Positions 1,741 to 20,012 of a DNA stretch of 64,000 nucleotides are shown here, piece by piece. This DNA is from Thermus scotoductus DSM 8553. Lineage in GTDB: Bacteria > Deinococcota > Deinococci > Deinococcales > Thermaceae. The stretch covers positions 1 through 64,000 of the forward strand of contig NZ_KB905737.1 in assembly GCF_000381045.1 (NCBI RefSeq), in the 5' to 3' direction. The position numbers and the translations under genes are program-made. Numbering within the stretch: position 1 is the stretch's first letter; each line of letters starts with the position of its first letter. The notes under the pieces were generated by a model that was not told where the DNA came from, ran no database searches, and was given only the letters and a program-made list of their open reading frames with translations.

Positions 1741-2928
1741 ATGGGCGGGGCTTGGCCAGAGGTGGTGATCCTGGGCGGGGGCTTTGGGGGGCTTGCCGCC
1801 GCCCGGGTTCTGGAAAGGGCGCGGGTTCCCTACCTCTTGCTGGACGCCCGGAACCACCACCTGTTCCAGCCCCTCCTTTACCAGGTGGCCACCGGCTTCC
1901 TGGAGGGGCCGGCCGTGGCCTACCCCTTGCGGGCCTTGCTGCGCCGGGGCCGGTTTCTCCTCGGCCGGGTGGAGCGGGTGGACCTCGAGGGGAAAAGGCT
2001 CCTCCTGGAGGGCGGGGATGCGCTTCCCTACCGCTTCCTTGTTGTGGCCACGGGAAGCCTTCCCAGCGACCTGGGGGTACCGGGGGTGAGGGAGCATGCC
2101 CTCTTCCTCAAGACCCTGGGCCAGGCCCTAAGGGTCCGGTACCGCCTCCTCGAGGCCCTGGAAAAAGCGGCCCGCAGGGGGCGCCCCCTGGACCTCCTCG
2201 TGGTGGGGGGCGGGCCCACGGGCGTGGAGCTCGCCGGGGCCCTGGCCGAGTTCTTGCGCTACACCCTGCCACGGGACTTCCCCGAGGTGCCCGCGGGGAC
2301 CGTCACCCTGCTGGAGGCGGGGCCCCGGCTCCTTTCCGCTTTCCGGCCGGCCCTCGGCCGGTATGCGGAGGGGGCCTTGGCCCAACTTGGCGTGAGGGTG
2401 CGCCTGGGGGCCCAGGTGGCCGAGGTGGGGGAGGGATGGGTAAGGCTTTCCGGGGGCGAGCGGCTTAAAGGGGACCTCGTCCTCTGGGCGGTGGGGGTGC
2501 GGGGGAACCCCCTTCCTGGGCTTCCTGCGGACGCTCGGGGCCGGGTGCCCACGGACCCCTGTCTGCGGCTTGTCGGTTATCCCGAGGTGTACGTGGTGGG
2601 GGACCTCAACGGGCTGGGCTTCCCCCAGCTCGCACCCGTGGCCCTGCAACAGGGGCGGTGGGCGGCGCGAAACCTCCTCCGGGCGTTAAGGGAGCAGGAC
2701 CCCCTCCCCTTCCGCTACCGCGACCGGGGGCAGCTTGCGGTTATCGGCCGCAATCGGGCGGTGGCGGAGCTTTGGGGCCTCGGGGTGGCTGGGCTTCCCG
2801 CCTGGCTCCTCTGGGCTTTCGTGCACCTGAGGGAGCTCGTGGGCTTCCGCAACCGCCTTCTGGTCTTCCTGGACTGGGCCTACACCTATCTTTTCCGGGA
2901 ACCTGGGGTGCGGATCCTCCCCGACTAG
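1741..2928 (+). CDS. nrcN: Type II NADH dehydrogenase (NrcN-like), membrane-associated
   Basis: The 395-residue protein has an N-terminal FAD-binding Rossmann motif (ILGGGFGGLAAARVLE, residues about 10-25), a second NAD(H)-binding motif VVGGGPTGVELAG near 154-166, the FAD-contacting VYVVGDLNG near 285, and the LAPVALQQG quinone/FAD-region motif around 300. The C-terminus is rich in aromatic and amphipathic helices (FVHLRELVGFRNRLLVF), the usual membrane anchor of NDH-2. It oxidises NADH and passes electrons to menaquinone without pumping protons. Its place beside a ferredoxin, an Fe-S protein and the nar operon supports equivalence to NrcN, the nitrate-respiration-specific dehydrogenase of Thermus; that name is by context. 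Its stop overlaps the convergent cupin-HHE gene by three bases. Confidence 0.8.
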   Translation: MGGAWPEVVILGGGFGGLAAARVLERARVPYLLLDARNHHLFQPLLYQVATGFLEGPAVAYPLRALLRRGRFLLGRVERVDLEGKRLLLEGGDALPYRFLVVATGSLPSDLGVPGVREHALFLKTLGQALRVRYRLLEALEKAARRGRPLDLLVVGGGPTGVELAGALAEFLRYTLPRDFPEVPAGTVTLLEAGPRLLSAFRPALGRYAEGALAQLGVRVRLGAQVAEVGEGWVRLSGGERLKGDLVLWAVGVRGNPLPGLPADARGRVPTDPCLRLVGYPEVYVVGDLNGLGFPQLAPVALQQGRWAARNLLRALREQDPLPFRYRDRGQLAVIGRNRAVAELWGLGVAGLPAWLLWAFVHLRELVGFRNRLLVFLDWAYTYLFREPGVRILPD

Positions 2929-3491
2929 GCCCTTAGCTCCGCCTCGCTGTGGGCTTGGAGGGCGATCTTGAGGCGTTCCACCACCCCATCCACGGGCCGG
3001 CCTTCCCGGAGGGAGCTTTGGAGCTCTCCCAGAAGTTCCAGGAGAAGCCGGTGCTCCAGGAGCCGATCCCGACGGTTTCCGGGGCTTAGCGTGGGGTAGT
3101 AGAGGGCCTCCTCCAGGGCGATGTGGGCCTGGAGCCTCTGAACCAGGGCCTCGGCTGCTCCTTGGGAGGGCAGGGTTTCCAGAAGGGCCTCAAGCTCCTT
3201 GTGGTCCCGGGCGAGCTGGCTCGGCGAAAGCCCCAAGGTGATCCAGAGGATACGCCCGCCTTCTGGGGCCTCCACATGGAGCTGGCCAGGCCGAACTCTC
3301 ACGGTCCGGCCCGGCTGGAGGCGGAGGGAGCGCCCCCAGAACCCCACCACCAGAACCCCTTCGAGAACTGCCAGGAGAGCGTCTTCGCTCCGCTCCACCT
3401 TCAGGGTCTGCTTCTCCCCCGGCTTTAGGTCCAGGCACCGGACCTGACCCCCTGGCCTCACTAGCCCTTTGCCTTCAAAGGGGTAAATCAT
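2925..3491 (-). CDS. Cupin-hemerythrin (HHE) fusion protein
   Basis: The ATG at 3491 is preceded by AAAGGAGG. Residues about 10-90 look like a small cupin barrel (LKPGE near the start, RPGQLHVEAPEGG for the second motif). Residues about 95-185 form a helical HHE domain with spaced acidic/His ligands: RDHKELEALLE, QAHIALEEALYYP, LEHRLLLELL and QAHSEAE. Such domains bind a di-iron centre and, in RIC/YtfE/ScdA proteins, repair NO-damaged Fe centres. The DUF542 half usually fused to HHE in RIC is a separate gene here at 5457-5657. The gene has its own upstream palindrome at 3563-3574. The role in nitrosative-stress protection is inferred. Confidence 0.7.
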   Translation of the reverse strand: MIYPFEGKGLVRPGGQVRCLDLKPGEKQTLKVERSEDALLAVLEGVLVVGFWGRSLRLQPGRTVRVRPGQLHVEAPEGGRILWITLGLSPSQLARDHKELEALLETLPSQGAAEALVQRLQAHIALEEALYYPTLSPGNRRDRLLEHRLLLELLGELQSSLREGRPVDGVVERLKIALQAHSEAELRA

Positions 3492-3562: not shown

Positions 3563-3574
3563 TGACCCAGGTCA
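3563..3574. promoter_or_regulatory. FNR-type palindrome (ATGAC-N4-GTCAA) upstream of the cupin-HHE gene
   Basis: TGACCCAGGTCA is a perfect 5-N4-5 core about 72 bases before the minus-strand ATG at 3491. It belongs to the six-member operator set of this island. Confidence 0.6.
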
Positions 3575-5673: not shown

Positions 5674-5719
5674 GTCTAGAGGATTCCCGGCCATGACCTG
5701 GGTCAAGTCTCCTCTAGAC
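5674..5719. promoter_or_regulatory. Operator region: FNR-type box inside a 10-bp inverted repeat
   Basis: The palindrome TGACCTGGGTCA (5694-5705; ATGAC-N4-GTCAA) lies 37 bases before the DUF542 start. It is bracketed by GTCTAGAGGA at 5674-5683 and its exact inverse TCCTCTAGAC at 5710-5719, whose centre is three bases from that of the box. The outer repeat could form a hairpin or be a second protein site. Confidence 0.55.
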
Positions 5720-5786: not shown

Positions 5787-5800
5787 TTGACCCAGGTTAA
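5787..5800. promoter_or_regulatory. FNR-type palindrome (TTGAC-N4-GTTAA) upstream of the radical SAM gene
   Basis: The box is centred about 62 bases before the ATG at 5856, on the other side of the same divergent region as the DUF542 operator. Two boxes 94 bases apart thus serve two diverging units. Confidence 0.55.
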
Positions 5801-5855: not shown

Positions 5856-6998
5856 ATGGAGATCAGCGGGATAGAGACCACGGATTTTGCCCGTTACCCT
5901 TACCTGGTGGCCTGGGAGGTGACCCATGCCTGCCTCCTGGCCTGCCGGCACTGCCGGGCCTCGGCGGAGCCTCACCCTCTTCCGGGGGAGCTGACGACGG
6001 AGGAGGGGCTTCGGCTTGTAGAGGAGGTCGCCACCTACCACCCCAAGCCCCTCCTCCTTCTCACGGGAGGGGATCCTTTGGCCCGGAAGGACCTTTTTCA
6101 GATCCTGGAGAAGGCCAAGGCCTTAGGCCTCAAGGTGGGCCTTACCCCAGCTTCTACGCCGCTTCTCACCCGGGAGATGGTCTTCCGCCTTAAGGCGGCG
6201 GGGGTGACTCGCTTGGCCCTTTCCTTGGACGGGGCCACCTCCGAAAGCCACGATGCCTTCCGCGGGGCGGAGGGGACCTTCCAAAGGACCCTCGAGGCCC
6301 TCTCCTGGGCCCGGGAGGCGGGGCTTCCCACCCAGGTGAACACCACCGTCACCCGGGATAACTGGCCCGAGATCCAAGCCCTTCCCGATCTCTTAGCGGA
6401 GAAGGGGGTGGTCCTCTGGAGCCTTTTCTTCCTGGTGCCAGTGGGCCGGGGAGGGCTTCTTCGGCAGCTTTCCACCAAACAGTTTGAGGAAGTCCTCCAC
6501 TGGCTTTACCAGATTTCCAAGACCTATCCTTTCCACGTCAAGACCACGGAGGCCCACCACTTCCGCCGGGTGGTCCTGCAAAGGCGGCAGGAGGAAGGGG
6601 TAGAGGACCGGGCGCTGGCCGCGGGGGAGAGCCTCTATCGGGAATACTTCCAAGACGGTATGGAGCACTCCCGGCTAGGGGTTACGGACGGAAACGGCTT
6701 CGTCTTCGTCTCCGCCACCGGAGATGTAGCCCCTTCGGGGTTTTTGCCCCTCTATGCGGGGAACATCCGGGAACAACCTCTTCTGGAGATATACCGAAAT
6801 AGCCCCCTCTTCCGGGAGCTACGGAACAAGGATCTCCTCAAGGGGAAGTGCGGGGTGTGCGAGTACCGCTATGTCTGTGGGGGAAGCCGGGCCCGGGCCT
6901 GGGCAGAGACCGGGGACTACCTGCAAAGCGAGCCCCGGTGCGCCTACGTGCCCCCGGCCTGGCTGGAGAAGGTGGGGAAGCACGTGATCGGGAGGTGA
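5856..6998 (+). CDS. Radical SAM/SPASM protein (TIGR04053-like, heme-pathway relative)
   Basis: The start is fixed by AAAGGAGG just upstream. The 380-residue protein has the radical-SAM cluster motif at Cys26, Cys30 and Cys33 (HACLLACRHC), the TGGDPL glycine-rich loop, and a C-terminal auxiliary-cluster region with CGVCEYRYVCGG near 332-343 and one more Cys near 363. It resembles the TIGR04053 subgroup, related to heme d1/alternative-heme enzymes NirJ and AhbD, which act on porphyrin side chains. It is followed five bases later by a cytochrome c gene. No cytochrome cd1 nitrite reductase is in the window, so its substrate cannot be assigned; a peptide-modifying role is the alternative. Confidence 0.75.
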   Translation: MEISGIETTDFARYPYLVAWEVTHACLLACRHCRASAEPHPLPGELTTEEGLRLVEEVATYHPKPLLLLTGGDPLARKDLFQILEKAKALGLKVGLTPASTPLLTREMVFRLKAAGVTRLALSLDGATSESHDAFRGAEGTFQRTLEALSWAREAGLPTQVNTTVTRDNWPEIQALPDLLAEKGVVLWSLFFLVPVGRGGLLRQLSTKQFEEVLHWLYQISKTYPFHVKTTEAHHFRRVVLQRRQEEGVEDRALAAGESLYREYFQDGMEHSRLGVTDGNGFVFVSATGDVAPSGFLPLYAGNIREQPLLEIYRNSPLFRELRNKDLLKGKCGVCEYRYVCGGSRARAWAETGDYLQSEPRCAYVPPAWLEKVGKHVIGR

Positions 6999-7560: not shown

Positions 7561-8214
7561 TCAGGAGAGGAGGGACCTTAGGTCCTCGAGGCGGTCCACA
7601 TATACCCTTCGCCCCTGGAGGCGGATGAGCCCCTGCCGGTAGAGCTCTCCCAGGTTGCGGGAGACCGCCTCGGGCACGGTGCCGAGCAGGGCGGCAAGCT
7701 CGGAATTGGTGGGAAGGAGGAAGCCCTGGCCCTCCGTCGCCAGGGTTTCCAAGAGGTATTCCGCCAGCCTTTCCCGCACCTCGTGGAAGACCAGACGGTC
7801 CAGAAGGTGGAGAAGCTGCCCCTGGCGCCGGGCCAGGTAACGGATCAGGGCCCGGGCCAAGGGGGGACGGGCCTCCGCCAGCTGGAAGAAGCGCTCCTTG
7901 GGGATGGCCAGGACCTGGCTTTCCTCCAGGGCCTCGGCGCTGGCGGGGTAGGTGGGGCGCTCCAGGAAGAGGGCCACCTCGGCCAGGACCCGCCCTGGGC
8001 CTTCCAGGTGCAGGACCACCTGTTTCCTTCCCTCGGGGTCCAGCTTGTACACCTTGATGAGGCCCTTCTCCACCACAAAGAGGGAGCGCACGGGCTCCCC
8101 CTCGAGGAAAAGCACCTCGCCCCGCTTTAGCCGCCTGGCCCTGGCCTCGCCTTCCAAGGCCTTGAGGTCCTCGGGGTTCAGGTCTCGGAAGAGGGGAACC
8201 TGCTTAAGATCCAT
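7561..8214 (-). CDS. dnrT: DnrT, Crp-Fnr family transcription factor
   Basis: The 217-residue protein has an N-terminal cyclic-nucleotide-fold sensor (LKRGEVLFLEGEPVRSLFVVEKG) and a C-terminal Crp-type winged helix with recognition helix TVPEAVSRNLGEL. The Glu-x-x-Ser-Arg pattern matches the FNR class, which reads TTGAT-like half-sites. It contains no cysteine, so it cannot hold an FNR Fe-S cluster; signal input probably comes through DnrS. The ATG lies three bases after the dnrS stop. In Thermus the DnrS/DnrT pair is known to activate the nitrate respiration operons. It is the most likely reader of the palindromes in this island, which is an inference. Confidence 0.85.
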   Translation of the reverse strand: MDLKQVPLFRDLNPEDLKALEGEARARRLKRGEVLFLEGEPVRSLFVVEKGLIKVYKLDPEGRKQVVLHLEGPGRVLAEVALFLERPTYPASAEALEESQVLAIPKERFFQLAEARPPLARALIRYLARRQGQLLHLLDRLVFHEVRERLAEYLLETLATEGQGFLLPTNSELAALLGTVPEAVSRNLGELYRQGLIRLQGRRVYVDRLEDLRSLLS

Positions 8215-8217
8215 TCC

Positions 8218-10020
8218 TTACCCCTTCAAGAAGCTCAGGCGCCTTTGTGCCTCCTCCAGGAAGGGTTCCAGCTTTAAGGCCCTGGCGTAGGCTTCCTTGG
8301 CCACCTCCAGGTAACCCAGGGCCTCGGCCAGCTCCCCCAGGCGCAGAAGGCCGGAGAGGGCCCTCTCCTGCAGGTAGGCCCGCTCGGCCTCCGCCCACTC
8401 CCCGTAGGGGTCATCGCCGAAGAGGGGGCCCTTGTAGAGCTCCAGGGCCTGGCGCAGGGTCTTGAAGGCGGCGAGGCCTTCCTCGAGGTCCGCCTTGCGC
8501 ATCAGGGCCTCAAAGCGCTCAAAGTCCAGGAAGCGGTCCTCGGGGAGCCTTAGCCGGTAGTACTCCCCCTCCCGCTCCACGATTCCCGGCAAGGCCTTGC
8601 GCAGATGGTAGACCAGGGTGTAGACCTCCTGCCGGGCCTTCTCCGGAGGGAGCTCGGGGAAGAGGGTTTCGGCGAGGTCCTCGGCGTACAGGGCCCGGTC
8701 CTTGTGGGCAAGGAGGAGCTTGAGGAGCTGGTACGCCCCCCGCCGTCCGAAGTCCCGAGGACCGAGTTCCCGCCCCCGGTAGCGGACCCGGAAGCCCCCC
8801 AGGGCATAGACCTCCAGCTCGGGGATGGGCCTGGCCTCCTCTTTTGGAAAGAGCAGGGGAAGGACCAGCCGCTCCAGCCAGAGGGCAGGGGCCGCGGGGC
8901 CTGTGGGGGGGCGTGGGGGACGGGCGTGGAAGAGGGTCTGGACCGCCACCACCTCTCCCTTAGCCCAGAGGGGAAGGCAGATCCGGGGGCGGCCCTCGGC
9001 CTCGGGGCAGTCGGGGAGACCGTTTTTCAGGCCCGCCACCTCCCCCCGCCAGGCGGGGCAGTTCTTCATGGTGCAGGGCGGGACCCAGCCCAGCGCCACC
9101 CGGCGCCCTTCCCGCGCCACCACCTGCACCCCCGTGGCCCCTGTGAGGCGGCGTACCTTCTGGAGGAAGGTGAGGAGGGCCTCGGAGGCCTCGCCCCGGA
9201 GGAGGTGCTGGGCGATGGCCTCGAGCCCTACCTCCCCCAAGCGGGTCAGGAGGGTGTAGAGGGTGCTGGCAAAGAGGGGGCCTATGCGGCCGAGGCTGTC
9301 TAAAAGGGCCTCGTGGTCCAACCGGGGGTCGCGGGAGGCGAGGTTTAAGACGCCGATGAGGCTGTGGGGAAGCTCCAGGGGGCAACAGACATAGGTTTGG
9401 TAGCCCAGTTGCTTCACCTTCTGCCTCAGGTAGCGGGGATCTTCCCCCAGGGCGTGGGTGACGAGGGGCTCGCGCCTCAGGGCCACAATCCCGGGGTAGC
9501 CTTCCCCCAACTGGAACCAGGGCCTTTCCAGGAAGGCCTCGCGGTGAAGGCCCTCGTAGGCGGTGAGGATCAGGTGATGGCCCTCGGGGTCTATCAGAAA
9601 GAGTTCGGCGGCCTCCATGCCTAGGGCCAGGCGTAGGGCGCGGAGGAAGTCCTCGAGGGCCTGCGGGAACCCCTCGGGGTTACGCAGAAGGTGCTGGGTC
9701 AGGCGGGAAAGCTCCAGAAGGAGATCTGGGGGCTCGGCCCGCTCGGGGTAAAGCTCCACCAGGAAGCCCTCCGCTTCCCGGTATCCCTGGCAGCGGAGGC
9801 GCCGCCCCTTGACCAGCAATGGGGTGCTGGCCCGGTAGGCTCCCCGTCTCAGCTCCCGTTGCACCGGGCACCGGGGGCAAAGGGGGCGGCCAAAGGGGTC
9901 TTGTCCTTGGACCAAAAGGGCGCAGGGGAGGCCGTTCCCCTCCAGGTCCAAGGAAGGGTCGGCCTCGAGGACCGTGGCCACCCCTTTGGGATCCAGCCTA
10001 AGCCGGGCTAAGGGCTTCAT
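8218..10020 (-). CDS. dnrS: DnrS, cytoplasmic sensor-regulator with GAF-like and SARP/BTAD domains
   Basis: I start at the ATG at 10020, because a TATACT lies eight bases upstream and the longer reading from 10065 would run through the promoter. The 600-residue protein has an N-terminal CPRCP region (about residue 50), a GAF-like domain near 115-260 and a second one near 265-385. The second carries a C-x4-C-x16-C-x9-C cluster (PPCTMKNCPAW to RPRIC). The C-terminal part is a winged helix plus bacterial transcriptional activation domain (VYALGGFRVRYRGREL, then TPR-like helices). Thermus DnrS is known to be needed with DnrT for anaerobic nar expression. The four-Cys set could hold an oxygen- or NO-sensitive Fe-S cluster; this is inferred. 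Confidence 0.8.
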   Translation of the reverse strand: MKPLARLRLDPKGVATVLEADPSLDLEGNGLPCALLVQGQDPFGRPLCPRCPVQRELRRGAYRASTPLLVKGRRLRCQGYREAEGFLVELYPERAEPPDLLLELSRLTQHLLRNPEGFPQALEDFLRALRLALGMEAAELFLIDPEGHHLILTAYEGLHREAFLERPWFQLGEGYPGIVALRREPLVTHALGEDPRYLRQKVKQLGYQTYVCCPLELPHSLIGVLNLASRDPRLDHEALLDSLGRIGPLFASTLYTLLTRLGEVGLEAIAQHLLRGEASEALLTFLQKVRRLTGATGVQVVAREGRRVALGWVPPCTMKNCPAWRGEVAGLKNGLPDCPEAEGRPRICLPLWAKGEVVAVQTLFHARPPRPPTGPAAPALWLERLVLPLLFPKEEARPIPELEVYALGGFRVRYRGRELGPRDFGRRGAYQLLKLLLAHKDRALYAEDLAETLFPELPPEKARQEVYTLVYHLRKALPGIVEREGEYYRLRLPEDRFLDFERFEALMRKADLEEGLAAFKTLRQALELYKGPLFGDDPYGEWAEAERAYLQERALSGLLRLGELAEALGYLEVAKEAYARALKLEPFLEEAQRRLSFLKG

Positions 10021-10028
10021 CGCTTCCC

Positions 10029-10034
10029 AGTATA
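10029..10034 (-). promoter_or_regulatory. -10 element of a leaderless dnrS promoter
   Basis: Minus-strand TATACT ends eight bases before the dnrS ATG, too close for a ribosome-binding leader, so transcription probably starts at or next to the ATG. The -35 position falls inside the first GGGAC-N4-GTCCC palindrome, suggesting that a regulator bound there controls dnrS itself. Confidence 0.55.
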
Positions 10035-10046
10035 GGGGAGGTGTTG

Positions 10047-10100
10047 GGGACAGACGTCCCAGCAAAAATCCCAGGGGGGTTCTTTTGGGACATATGTCCT
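10047..10100. promoter_or_regulatory. Twin palindromes in the dnrS-narC divergent promoter
   Basis: GGGAC-AGAC-GTCCC at 10047-10060 and GGGAC-ATAT-GTCCT at 10087-10100 have centres exactly 40 bp apart, hence on nearly the same helix face. The second extends to a near-perfect 20-bp inverted repeat. Both have the 5-N4-5 layout of Crp-Fnr sites and share GAC-N4-GTC with the TTGAC boxes elsewhere in the island, but differ in the outer bases. Confidence 0.6.
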
Positions 10101-10155
10101 AAAGGGAGCCAGTGGCTGCCAGTGCCTCCCTCCAAACTGCAAGCCGGAGGTGAGG

Positions 10156-10950
10156 ATGAAGGGCAAAAGGTTCTTTCCCCTGGCCTTGCTCCTGGCCCTA
10201 GCCCTGGCCCTGGCCCAAGATGGGAAAACCCTTTACGGCCAGTACTGCGCCGCCTGCCATGGGGCGGAAGCCCAGGGTATCCCGGGAGCCATCCCCCCCT
10301 TGGCGGGGAACCCACGGGTACAAGACGAGGCCTATGTGGTGAAGGTGGTGCGGGAGGGGCTTTCCGGCCCCCTGGAGGTAAATGGGGTGAGCTATAGCGG
10401 GGTCATGCCTCCCATGCCCCAGGTATCCGAGGCCCAAGCCCGGGCCATCGCCCAGTATCTAAAGGGTTTATCGGGTGCCCAAGCCGAGGCCCCGGCGCTC
10501 GCGCCTCAGGTCCAAGGGGATCCCGCCTTAGGCCGGGCCCTATACCTGGGCCAGAAGCCCTTGCAGAACGGCGGGGCCCCCTGCCAGGCCTGCCACACGG
10601 TGGCGGGCGTAGGCTTCCTGGGCGGGGGGTCCCTGGGCAAGGACCTCACGGATGCCGCCAAGCGCCTGGGGGGCGAGGCGGGGCTTACCGGTTTGTTACA
10701 AAACCCCGCTTTCCCCGTGATGCGGGAAGCCTACAAGGGCAAGCCTTTGACCGAGGCCGAGGCGGCGGCTTTGGCCGCTTTCTTGGTGCAGGTCTCCAAT
10801 GAAGTTCCAAGGCCCGCTTCCCTGTATCTGGGCCGGTTCTTGGTGGCGGGATTGGTGCTTTTGGGACTCTTGTTGCTTTACCAGGCCATCCTCTGGCAGC
10901 TAAGGCCCAGGAGCCTGGCGGAGCGCATCCAAAGCCAGCTTAGGAGGTAA
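10156..10950 (+). CDS. narC: NarC, diheme cytochrome c of the nitrate reductase
   Basis: GGAGGTGAGG supports the ATG at 10156 over the in-frame GTG six bases earlier. A signal peptide (ALALALA) is followed by two heme c sites, CAACH near residue 33 and CQACH near 144, and one transmembrane helix near the C-terminus ([20 protein letters not shown]). That gives a periplasm-facing, membrane-anchored diheme protein of 264 residues. In Thermus narC is the first gene of the nar operon and its product links the quinone-oxidising subunit to the enzyme. The narG start follows two bases after its stop. Confidence 0.92.
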
Positions 10951-20000: not shown

Positions 20001-20012
20001 TGACCCAGGTCA
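20001..20012. promoter_or_regulatory. FNR-type palindrome (TTGAC-N4-GTCAT) upstream of the DUF2249 cluster
   Basis: TGACCCAGGTCA lies 40 bases before the ATG at 20052, identical in its core to the site at 3563-3574. Confidence 0.6.

Follow-up and report, generated by a model that had tools for sequence, protein, structure and literature searches.

A palindrome between dnrS and narC

Which protein reads the control region between the divergent genes dnrS and narC of Thermus, and why does Thermus scotoductus DSM 8553 carry the same palindrome twice in it? We followed both questions in a 64,000-nucleotide stretch of this genome (positions 1 to 64,000 of contig NZ_KB905737.1, hereafter the window) and in related genomes. 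The intergenic region is 135 bp long and lies between dnrS (8218–10020, minus strand; ATG at 10020) and narC (10156–10950, plus strand; ATG at 10156), the first gene of nar, which encodes a c-type cytochrome and whose orthologue in T. thermophilus NAR1 is annotated as such. DnrS consists of a Cys-rich N-terminus, a GAF domain, a second Cys-rich region, and a SARP-like winged helix-turn-helix with a BTAD domain. Its Pfam matches are GAF_2 and BTAD, with Trans_reg_C under the cut-off. The adjacent gene dnrT (7561–8214, minus strand) encodes a protein of the Crp-Fnr family with a P-E--SR recognition helix.

Two sets of four Cys residues in DnrS (33, 48, 51 and 77; 316, 321, 338 and 348) are invariant in ten sequences of 50–100% identity and form a candidate metal or Fe-S oxygen sensor; the oxygen sensor of DnrS is described in papers as unknown. 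In the T. thermophilus NAR1 record (L247) dnrS is annotated in two pieces, which could be a sequencing frameshift, and in JL-18 and SG0.5JP17-16 it is a single gene.

The first palindrome, GGGACAGACGTCCC, occupies positions 10047–10060 (centre 10053.5) and the second, GGGACATATGTCCT, positions 10087–10100 (centre 10093.5); like the other palindromic features below, they are assigned to no strand. They are the only zero-mismatch matches to GGGACNNNNGTCCY in the window, and their sequences and the pattern search bear out the initial annotation, which had described two palindromes exactly 40 bp apart. Copy 1 lies over the -35 region of the dnrS promoter, with its centre 33.5 bp from the dnrS ATG and at about -31.5 for that gene, and copy 2 has its centre 62.5 bp from the narC ATG, at about -51.5. 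At the genome-wide rate, 0.0009 sites would be expected in 135 bp. However, the loose motif is not in excess: with one mismatch allowed the window holds 15 matches, against a mean of 31.2 (standard deviation 7.2) in shuffled sequence, and over the whole genome RGGACNNNNGTCCY has 14 matches against 42 for the reversed pattern. The case for the motif therefore depends on its position and conservation.

Full-length DnrS is encoded in 19 of 27 Thermus genomes, including that of the window, and the other 18 served as the comparison set. The initial annotation had staked its claim on the recurrence of the palindromes at other Thermus nar promoters, and all 18 dnrS-narC regions carry a single one, AGGAC-N4-GTCCC preceded by T. 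One copy each was also found in T. thermophilus NAR1, JL-18, SG0.5JP17-16 and AA2-20 and in T. parvatiensis. These make up five of a set of 17 plasmid records; a sixth, from T. brockianus, matched over 83 bases only, and the eleven others fall outside the count. Eight loci of a named genome collection (seven labelled Thermus, several of them genomes already counted) likewise have one copy each. The contig of one locus (L313, CALKFO010000098.1), labelled Candidatus Bipolaricaulota, has a dnrS-narC region that agrees with the one in Thermus altitudinis (L319) at each of the 170 bases printed and is probably a misbinned Thermus contig.

The spacing of the site is nearly fixed in the 18 single-copy regions. 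In 17 of them 62.5 bp separate its centre from narC, and in one 61.5 bp; the distance to dnrS is 33.5 bp in 11, 34.5 bp in five, 35.5 bp in one and 36.5 bp in one. Thirteen of the 15 palindrome columns are invariant, compared with 18 of the 79 other ungapped columns, and most of those 18 fall in the ribosome-binding site, the narC -10 element and a short direct repeat. Among 20 outgroup dnrS loci inspected by eye, the whole RGGAC-N4-GTCCY site is present in six and one half is kept in 14, where TGTCCC or TGTCCT is intact and the other half is altered (for example GGTGC, GGTAC or GGTCA). This distribution indicates that the palindrome at dnrS-narC is old. In one decayed nar/dnr locus (L182, G010:C16:1-6000), where only the start of narC and about 50 residues of dnrS (by eye) are left, dnrT is intact and the palindrome is kept.

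The -10 box of dnrS, TATACT (10029–10034, minus strand), ends 8 bases before the ATG, so the transcript is probably leaderless or nearly so. Of the 19 dnrS promoters, 17 have a TAnnnT whose first base lies 19 or 20 bases away from the centre of the palindrome (0.37 and 0.53 of the promoters, respectively); together with the TATACT box, this sustains the earlier placement of copy 1 over the dnrS -35 position. The narC -10 element is probably CAAACT (10133–10138, plus strand). It reads CACACT in most relatives, with conserved columns cCA.aCT in which A, C and T are invariant in all 18 orthologous regions, and is not of the form TAnnnT. From this conserved element the palindrome centre falls near -51.5 for narC. 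The narC ribosome-binding site, GGAGGTGAGG (10146–10155, plus strand), contains GGAGGTG, invariant in 18 of 18.

The -35 region of narC carries a direct repeat, GCCAG-N5-GCCAG (10108–10122, plus strand), in which two AG pairs 10 bp apart are invariant in all 18 Thermus regions. In some loci of the Meiothermus group (for example L038) TGTAAG-N5-TGTAAG occupies this position; the period, read without statistics, is 10 bp in Thermus and 11 bp in some outgroup loci. SARP proteins bind direct repeats, and a site of this type is expected to have a period near 11 bp and to lie upstream of the -10 element. The repeat is a candidate DnrS site.

A different kind of box is also present. In the window, TGACCNNGGTCA-type boxes occur exactly at 3563, 5694 and 20001 and with one mismatch at 1044, 1659, 5788, 22356, 33535 and 52010. 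The box at 3563–3574 (TGACCCAGGTCA) is upstream of a hemerythrin-domain gene (2925–3491, minus strand) and is also found before a hemerythrin gene in NAR1, and that at 5694–5705 (TGACCTGGGTCA) is upstream of a minus-strand reading frame identified by eye. The one-mismatch box at 5788–5799 (TGACCCAGGTTA) precedes an open reading frame at 5856–6998 that is radical-SAM-like by eye. Another TGACCCAGGTCA box lies just downstream of the nar genes (20001–20012), and in NAR1 the same box is found 44 bp before a DUF2249 gene at the drp position. No TGACCNNGGTCA box with up to one mismatch occurs in any of the 19 dnrS-narC regions, which supports the earlier proposal that the nar/dnr region uses a site type distinct from the TTGACC boxes. 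The sequences of two strains fit this division. NAR1 has the palindrome at dnr/nar, and its nrc, drp-position and radical-SAM (nirJ) genes are preceded by TTGACC boxes; in JL-18 such boxes also precede the norC/nsrR genes, and the palindrome occurs at nirS too. In T. thermophilus the box assigned to DnrT and NsrR-Th in the published excerpts is CTTGACCNNGGTCATGG (PMC5748679). It resembles the palindrome in being a GAC-N4-GTC dyad in denitrification promoters of the same island; however, its outer bases are TT/AA rather than RG/CY, and it precedes nrc, nirJ, norC and the gene at the drp position but is absent from 19 of 19 dnrS-narC regions.

Probable duplication of the shared site

The arrangement of two copies 40 bp apart was found only in the window, which represents a single assembly. 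Its intergenic region measures 135 bp, compared with 94–98 bp in the 18 orthologues, and copy 1 keeps the ancestral distance to dnrS (33.5 bp) while copy 2 keeps that to narC (62.5 bp). Since each copy stands at the old distance of one gene, tandem duplication of a shared operator is the most likely origin. The probable imperfect duplication covers 10021–10100 with a unit of about 40 bp that contains the dnrS -10 region and the palindrome.

When the left flank of copy 1 was aligned with the left flanks of two orthologues, the score was reached by none of 500 shuffles for one (L010) and by two for the other (L015), whereas for the left flank of copy 2 it was reached by 14 and 64 of 500, respectively. 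An ungapped comparison of the two window flanks with each other was not significant (8 of 26 positions identical, a value reached by 1166 of 5000 shuffles). Duplication of the shared operator in this lineage is accordingly likely, not proven. Ancestrally, one RGGACANNTGTCCY-type site would have served both promoters; its centre would have lain on the -35 region for dnrS, near -31.5, and near -51.5 for narC. After tandem duplication of some 40 bp, dnrS and narC would each have had a separate copy at the former spacing.

The initial annotation had suggested that dimers on the same face of the helix may cooperate. We reject a cooperative pair as a general design: all 18 other Thermus regions are single-copy, and 40 bp corresponds to 3.8 turns of 10.5 bp. 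The pair is most likely a local duplication and not a working unit.

Doubled sites elsewhere have other spacings, which likewise counts against that design. Three nitrite-reductase-type promoters (L105, L120 and L130) have a doubled palindrome with centres about 15 bp apart, for example GGGACATCTGTCAC followed by AGGACACCTGTCCT. Promoters of ba3 oxidase genes have two palindromes 32 bp apart in G026 (L078) and 35 bp apart in G005 (L103), and one was found in the genome of the window.

Related sites at respiratory promoters

In Thermaceae, RGGACANNTGTCCY, which includes the AT-rich centre, has 187 matches compared with 22 for the reversed control and occurs in all 50 genomes. The excess extends to families f4 (42 versus 1, in 14 of 14 genomes) and f5 (58 versus 4, in 23 of 39); f2 (2 versus 2, in one of four genomes) and f3 (0 versus 0, in none of four) have none. 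The sites precede genes for cytochromes, multihaem cytochromes, sulfite dehydrogenase and nitrite reductase (the labels NosD-like and NirS-like were given by eye, and the fragments searched had no match in Pfam or NCBIfam). A respiratory regulon of Thermales with RGGACANNTGTCCY, as judged by excess over control and retention at orthologous promoters, is thus seen in Thermaceae, f4 and f5, but not in f2 and f3.

Across the 15 Thermus genomes studied most closely, 70 sites sort into orthologous groups. Fourteen of the 15 cluster A sites have the start of a cytochrome c gene no more than 400 bp downstream, the exception being in G026, and a multihaem cytochrome gene follows all 14 cluster B sites, none of which was found in the genome of the window. 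Cluster E precedes sulfite dehydrogenase (5 of 5) and cluster H subunit II of ba3 oxidase (2 of 2), and the seven sites of cluster D are near genes for cytochrome c, radical-SAM proteins of the TIGR04053 kind (nirJ position) and copper-nitrite-reductase-like proteins. Two groups count against a purely respiratory reading of the regulon: cluster C precedes a TetR gene (13 of 13) and cluster F an amino-acid transporter gene (5 of 5).

A second dyad, of the kind CAAACG..CGTTAG, adjoins the palindrome at the cluster C loci and at five cluster F loci (L096, L097, L109, L116 and L128), so that two regulators probably share these promoters. The TetR gene of cluster C was the sole regulator gene noticed by a conserved site. 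As a candidate reader of the palindrome it was set aside, given the separate TAACAAACG..CGTTAG dyad there, which we take to be of the kind known for TetR proteins.

In the genome of the window, a search with one mismatch placed GTACA-variant sites before the genes for ba3 subunit II, a CtaA-type haem A synthase, a PCuAC chaperone and a protoglobin. The search as a whole gave 35 matches, no more than the 37 controls, with several of the others intragenic or in a repeated element; hence only promoter placements of GTACA-type matches are counted. A position matrix, trained partly on sites of the genome that it then scanned, found seven sites above 20 bits in 1.26 Mb. Each lies at the beginning of a gene or shortly before it; the genes concerned are nar, haem A synthase, ba3, two cytochromes c, protoglobin and a TetR gene. 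The next-best match, at 14.9 bits, is intragenic. Compared with permuted matrices, there were 7 sites above 15 bits versus a mean of 2.05 (maximum 5), 10 above 13 bits versus 5.9 (maximum 14) and 14 above 11 bits versus 13.2 (maximum 24). Only the strongest sites stand out, since the counts above 13 and 11 bits lie within the permuted range. Copy 2 has the best score of all (26.8). Copy 1 has C in place of one inner T, which lowers its score to 13.5, within the background of the matrix, yet five single-copy nar sites of relatives score just 14.9–17.2. Control of dnrS through its palindrome is plausible.

The position of the site relative to the promoter is also retained in several groups. The -10 element (TAnnnT) begins 21 bases from the palindrome centre in a fraction of 0.93 of cluster A, 20 bases in all of cluster B, 23 bases in 0.85 of cluster C and 18 bases for PCuAC. 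With offsets of 18–23 bases in clusters A, B and C, dnrS and PCuAC, the palindrome covers the -35 region there. No TAnnnT was found at these offsets for narC, ctaA or clusters E and F, and for ba3 of the genome of the window it is 30 bases away.

This placement might suggest that the palindrome is no operator and that RNA polymerase maintains it as a symmetric -35 element of the promoter. Such an explanation is very unlikely: both halves are conserved beyond the length of a -35 hexamer, strong sites occur at only a handful of genes, and the centre falls near -51.5 in the narC promoter and is separated from the -10 of ba3 by 30 bases.

Candidate readers of the palindrome

We consider it rather probable that the palindrome is a conserved operator serving the divergent promoters of dnrST and nar, duplicated here, whose main reader is a chromosomal protein and not DnrT. 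The site would belong to a Thermales regulon, mostly of respiratory genes, that includes ba3 oxidase, haem A synthase, a copper chaperone, cytochromes c, protoglobin, sulfite dehydrogenase, nitrite reductase and nar/dnr. Its main reader would most likely be encoded outside the nar island and be present in all Thermus; a chromosomal reader is favoured because sites persist where dnrS and dnrT are missing. The adjacent direct repeat is probably where DnrS works, and DnrT probably relies for the most part on TTGACC boxes. From these patterns we infer that the palindrome is bound, and also which protein might bind it, with what sign of regulation, and what part DnrS plays.

Published genetics, in the excerpts of the papers that treat these promoters, partly conflict and tie the palindrome-type promoters to DnrS more than to DnrT. 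DnrS is reported as needed at Pnar and Pdnr and not at Pnrc (PMC5748679, PMC6282519, PMC7694296), and NarG and PnirS as requiring DnrS and not DnrT (PMC5748679). The latter source describes PnirS as almost constitutive in HB27, a strain without the island; the PnirS work in print used HB27d, and the palindrome at nirS is known from the sequence of JL-18. Its abstract, however, states that all three nic promoters depend on both DnrS and DnrT, and the same excerpts have PnorC and PnirJ, both with TTGACC boxes, also needing DnrS. DnrT is said to act at Pnrc through a TTGACC site (PMC7694296), whose sequence we found in NAR1, and to be needed at Pdrp (PMC5748679, PMC6282519, PMC7694296), and NsrR to bind CTTGACCNNGGTCATGG (PMC5748679). 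On nar the excerpts disagree: in one paper Pnar and Pdnr require DnrT (PMC6282519), whereas NarG was made without it in a paper that also reports no DnrS in a dnrT mutant (PMC5748679).

One alternative is that DnrT reads both site types, with the GAC-N4-GTC core needed and the outer bases tuning affinity; at the palindrome it would activate narC and act as a brake on dnrS over the -35 region. The geometry common to the palindrome and the TTGACC site at Pnrc, the reported requirement at Pnar and Pdnr, and the intact dnrT and palindrome of G010, where dnrS is mostly deleted, are consistent with this idea. We nevertheless consider it unlikely. An operator of DnrT would be expected only where DnrT is encoded, but the motif stands at orthologous promoters of genomes without dnrT. 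Sites precede respiratory genes even in five near-complete genomes that encode neither full-length DnrS nor DnrT (G005, G014, G018, G019 and G026), where 19 sites compare with 5 controls. In addition, PnirS is reported as DnrT-independent, and no gel shift with DnrT was obtained on PnirS, PnirJ or PnorC, although DnrT gel shifts failed in general, according to the same excerpts (PMC5748679).

The initial annotation had also supposed that the outer bases could separate DnrT from another Crp-Fnr protein. A second site type does exist, but reading by DnrT or another Crp-Fnr protein does not accord with the sites in the five genomes free of dnrS and dnrT, nor with the lack of a DnrT role at PnirS in the excerpted report (PMC5748679). 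We do not favour a Crp-Fnr paralogue: 18 of the 19 Crp-Fnr proteins listed in those five genomes have R-E--(T/S)(K/R) recognition helices, compared with P-E--SR in DnrT (one, L167, was unreadable), and so do the three non-DnrT Crp-Fnr proteins of the genome of the window.

Another possibility is that DnrS reads the palindrome through its SARP-like winged helix and that some other chromosomal protein reads look-alike sites elsewhere. The DnrS dependence reported for Pnar and Pdnr, which have the palindrome, and for PnirS, which has it in JL-18, fits this explanation, as does the DnrS independence of Pnrc, which has a TTGACC box only. However, sites occur in genomes without a DnrS match at E 1e-3 (G005, G014, G018 and G026), PnorC and PnirJ reportedly need DnrS while carrying TTGACC boxes, and the direct repeats bound by SARP proteins are represented by one adjoining the palindrome. 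We therefore regard DnrS as an equally unlikely main reader.

The palindrome has the GGGAC-N4-GTCCC dyad of the DevR/NarL-family box, and like the DevR/DosR box of M. tuberculosis it is associated with hypoxia-type target genes. The DevR box, GGGACT..AGTCCC, also overlaps the -35 region and has the inner bases T..A. A NarL/DevR-type response regulator, P0003, is matched in 27 of 27 Thermus genomes at 92–100% identity; its nearest solved relatives are VraR, DevR and NarL, and its recognition helix reads EKTVRN. It is quite unlikely to be the reader, since the inner bases of the palindrome are A..T, no RGGACANNTGTCCY or GTACA-type site was found in the loci fetched around its gene, and no kinase was recognised by eye beside it. 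Nor does its distribution single it out: 108 of 111 genomes have a match (E 1e-30 or better), among them the four site-free genomes of f3. A relative of DevR/DosR, OsdR, is treated in excerpts of another paper (PMC5069765).

The presence of copper enzymes among the targets also brings to mind a repressor like CopY, BlaI or MecI. The palindrome type fits the core KACANNYGTM of the cop box, by matrix against the excerpted consensus (PMC7253601), and the operator given there, RNYKACANNYGTMRNY, fits that core, the G/T variation (GGACA or GTACA) and the tolerated inner C; the targets include PCuAC, ba3 and CtaA and, in other Thermus, a copper-nitrite-reductase-like gene. In contrast, the outer bases are GG/CC where the cop box has RNY, and no matching CopY-like protein was found in 1.61 of 2.07 Mb (78%) of the genome, scanned with an uncalibrated sequence pattern. 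Such a repressor is very unlikely to be the reader.

Two other known site types differ further. The FNR/DNR-type site, TTGAT-N4-ATCAA, usually activates from -41.5. It shares with the palindrome a 14-bp dyad, a 4-bp spacer and control of anaerobic respiration, but the outer and inner bases differ, and the palindrome is at about -31.5 and -51.5. The LdrP/TTHB099 site, TGTATTCTAGAATACA, is likewise a palindromic regulator site of Thermus, but has TGT directed outward where the palindrome has ACA..TGT inward; in the published excerpts the ba3 genes are among those changed in the LdrP/TTHB099 mutant, though its motif was not found there (PMC7662524). None of the candidates checked by sequence (Crp-Fnr paralogues, the NarL-type response regulator and CopY/BlaI-like proteins) was confirmed as reader. 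Open-licence papers, searched by title or abstract, yielded nothing on the palindrome or on a ba3 regulator reading it, and a Thermales respiratory regulon with this palindrome is not described in that literature.

The sharing of the palindrome across respiratory genes suggests a common regulator. Extending the reading of the palindrome as a chromosomally read operator, we tentatively propose, at somewhat short of an even chance, that a chromosomal regulator outside the Crp-Fnr family, positioned on the -35 element, reads a Thermales respiratory regulon, that the nar/dnr island plugged into it through one shared operator, and that the split of this operator here lets the regulator and enzyme genes evolve their responses separately. 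The window would thus present a natural case of a shared divergent operator duplicated and split. More generally, the palindrome distinguishes promoters for which control by DnrS is reported from those whose reported regulators are DnrT and NsrR. The T. thermophilus genome is stated, in the excerpts consulted, to have no homologue of FNR or NarX/NarL (PMC5748679). An operator type that the nar/dnr island has in common with ba3 oxidase, haem A synthase and cytochromes offers a concrete handle on how low oxygen is translated into gene expression.
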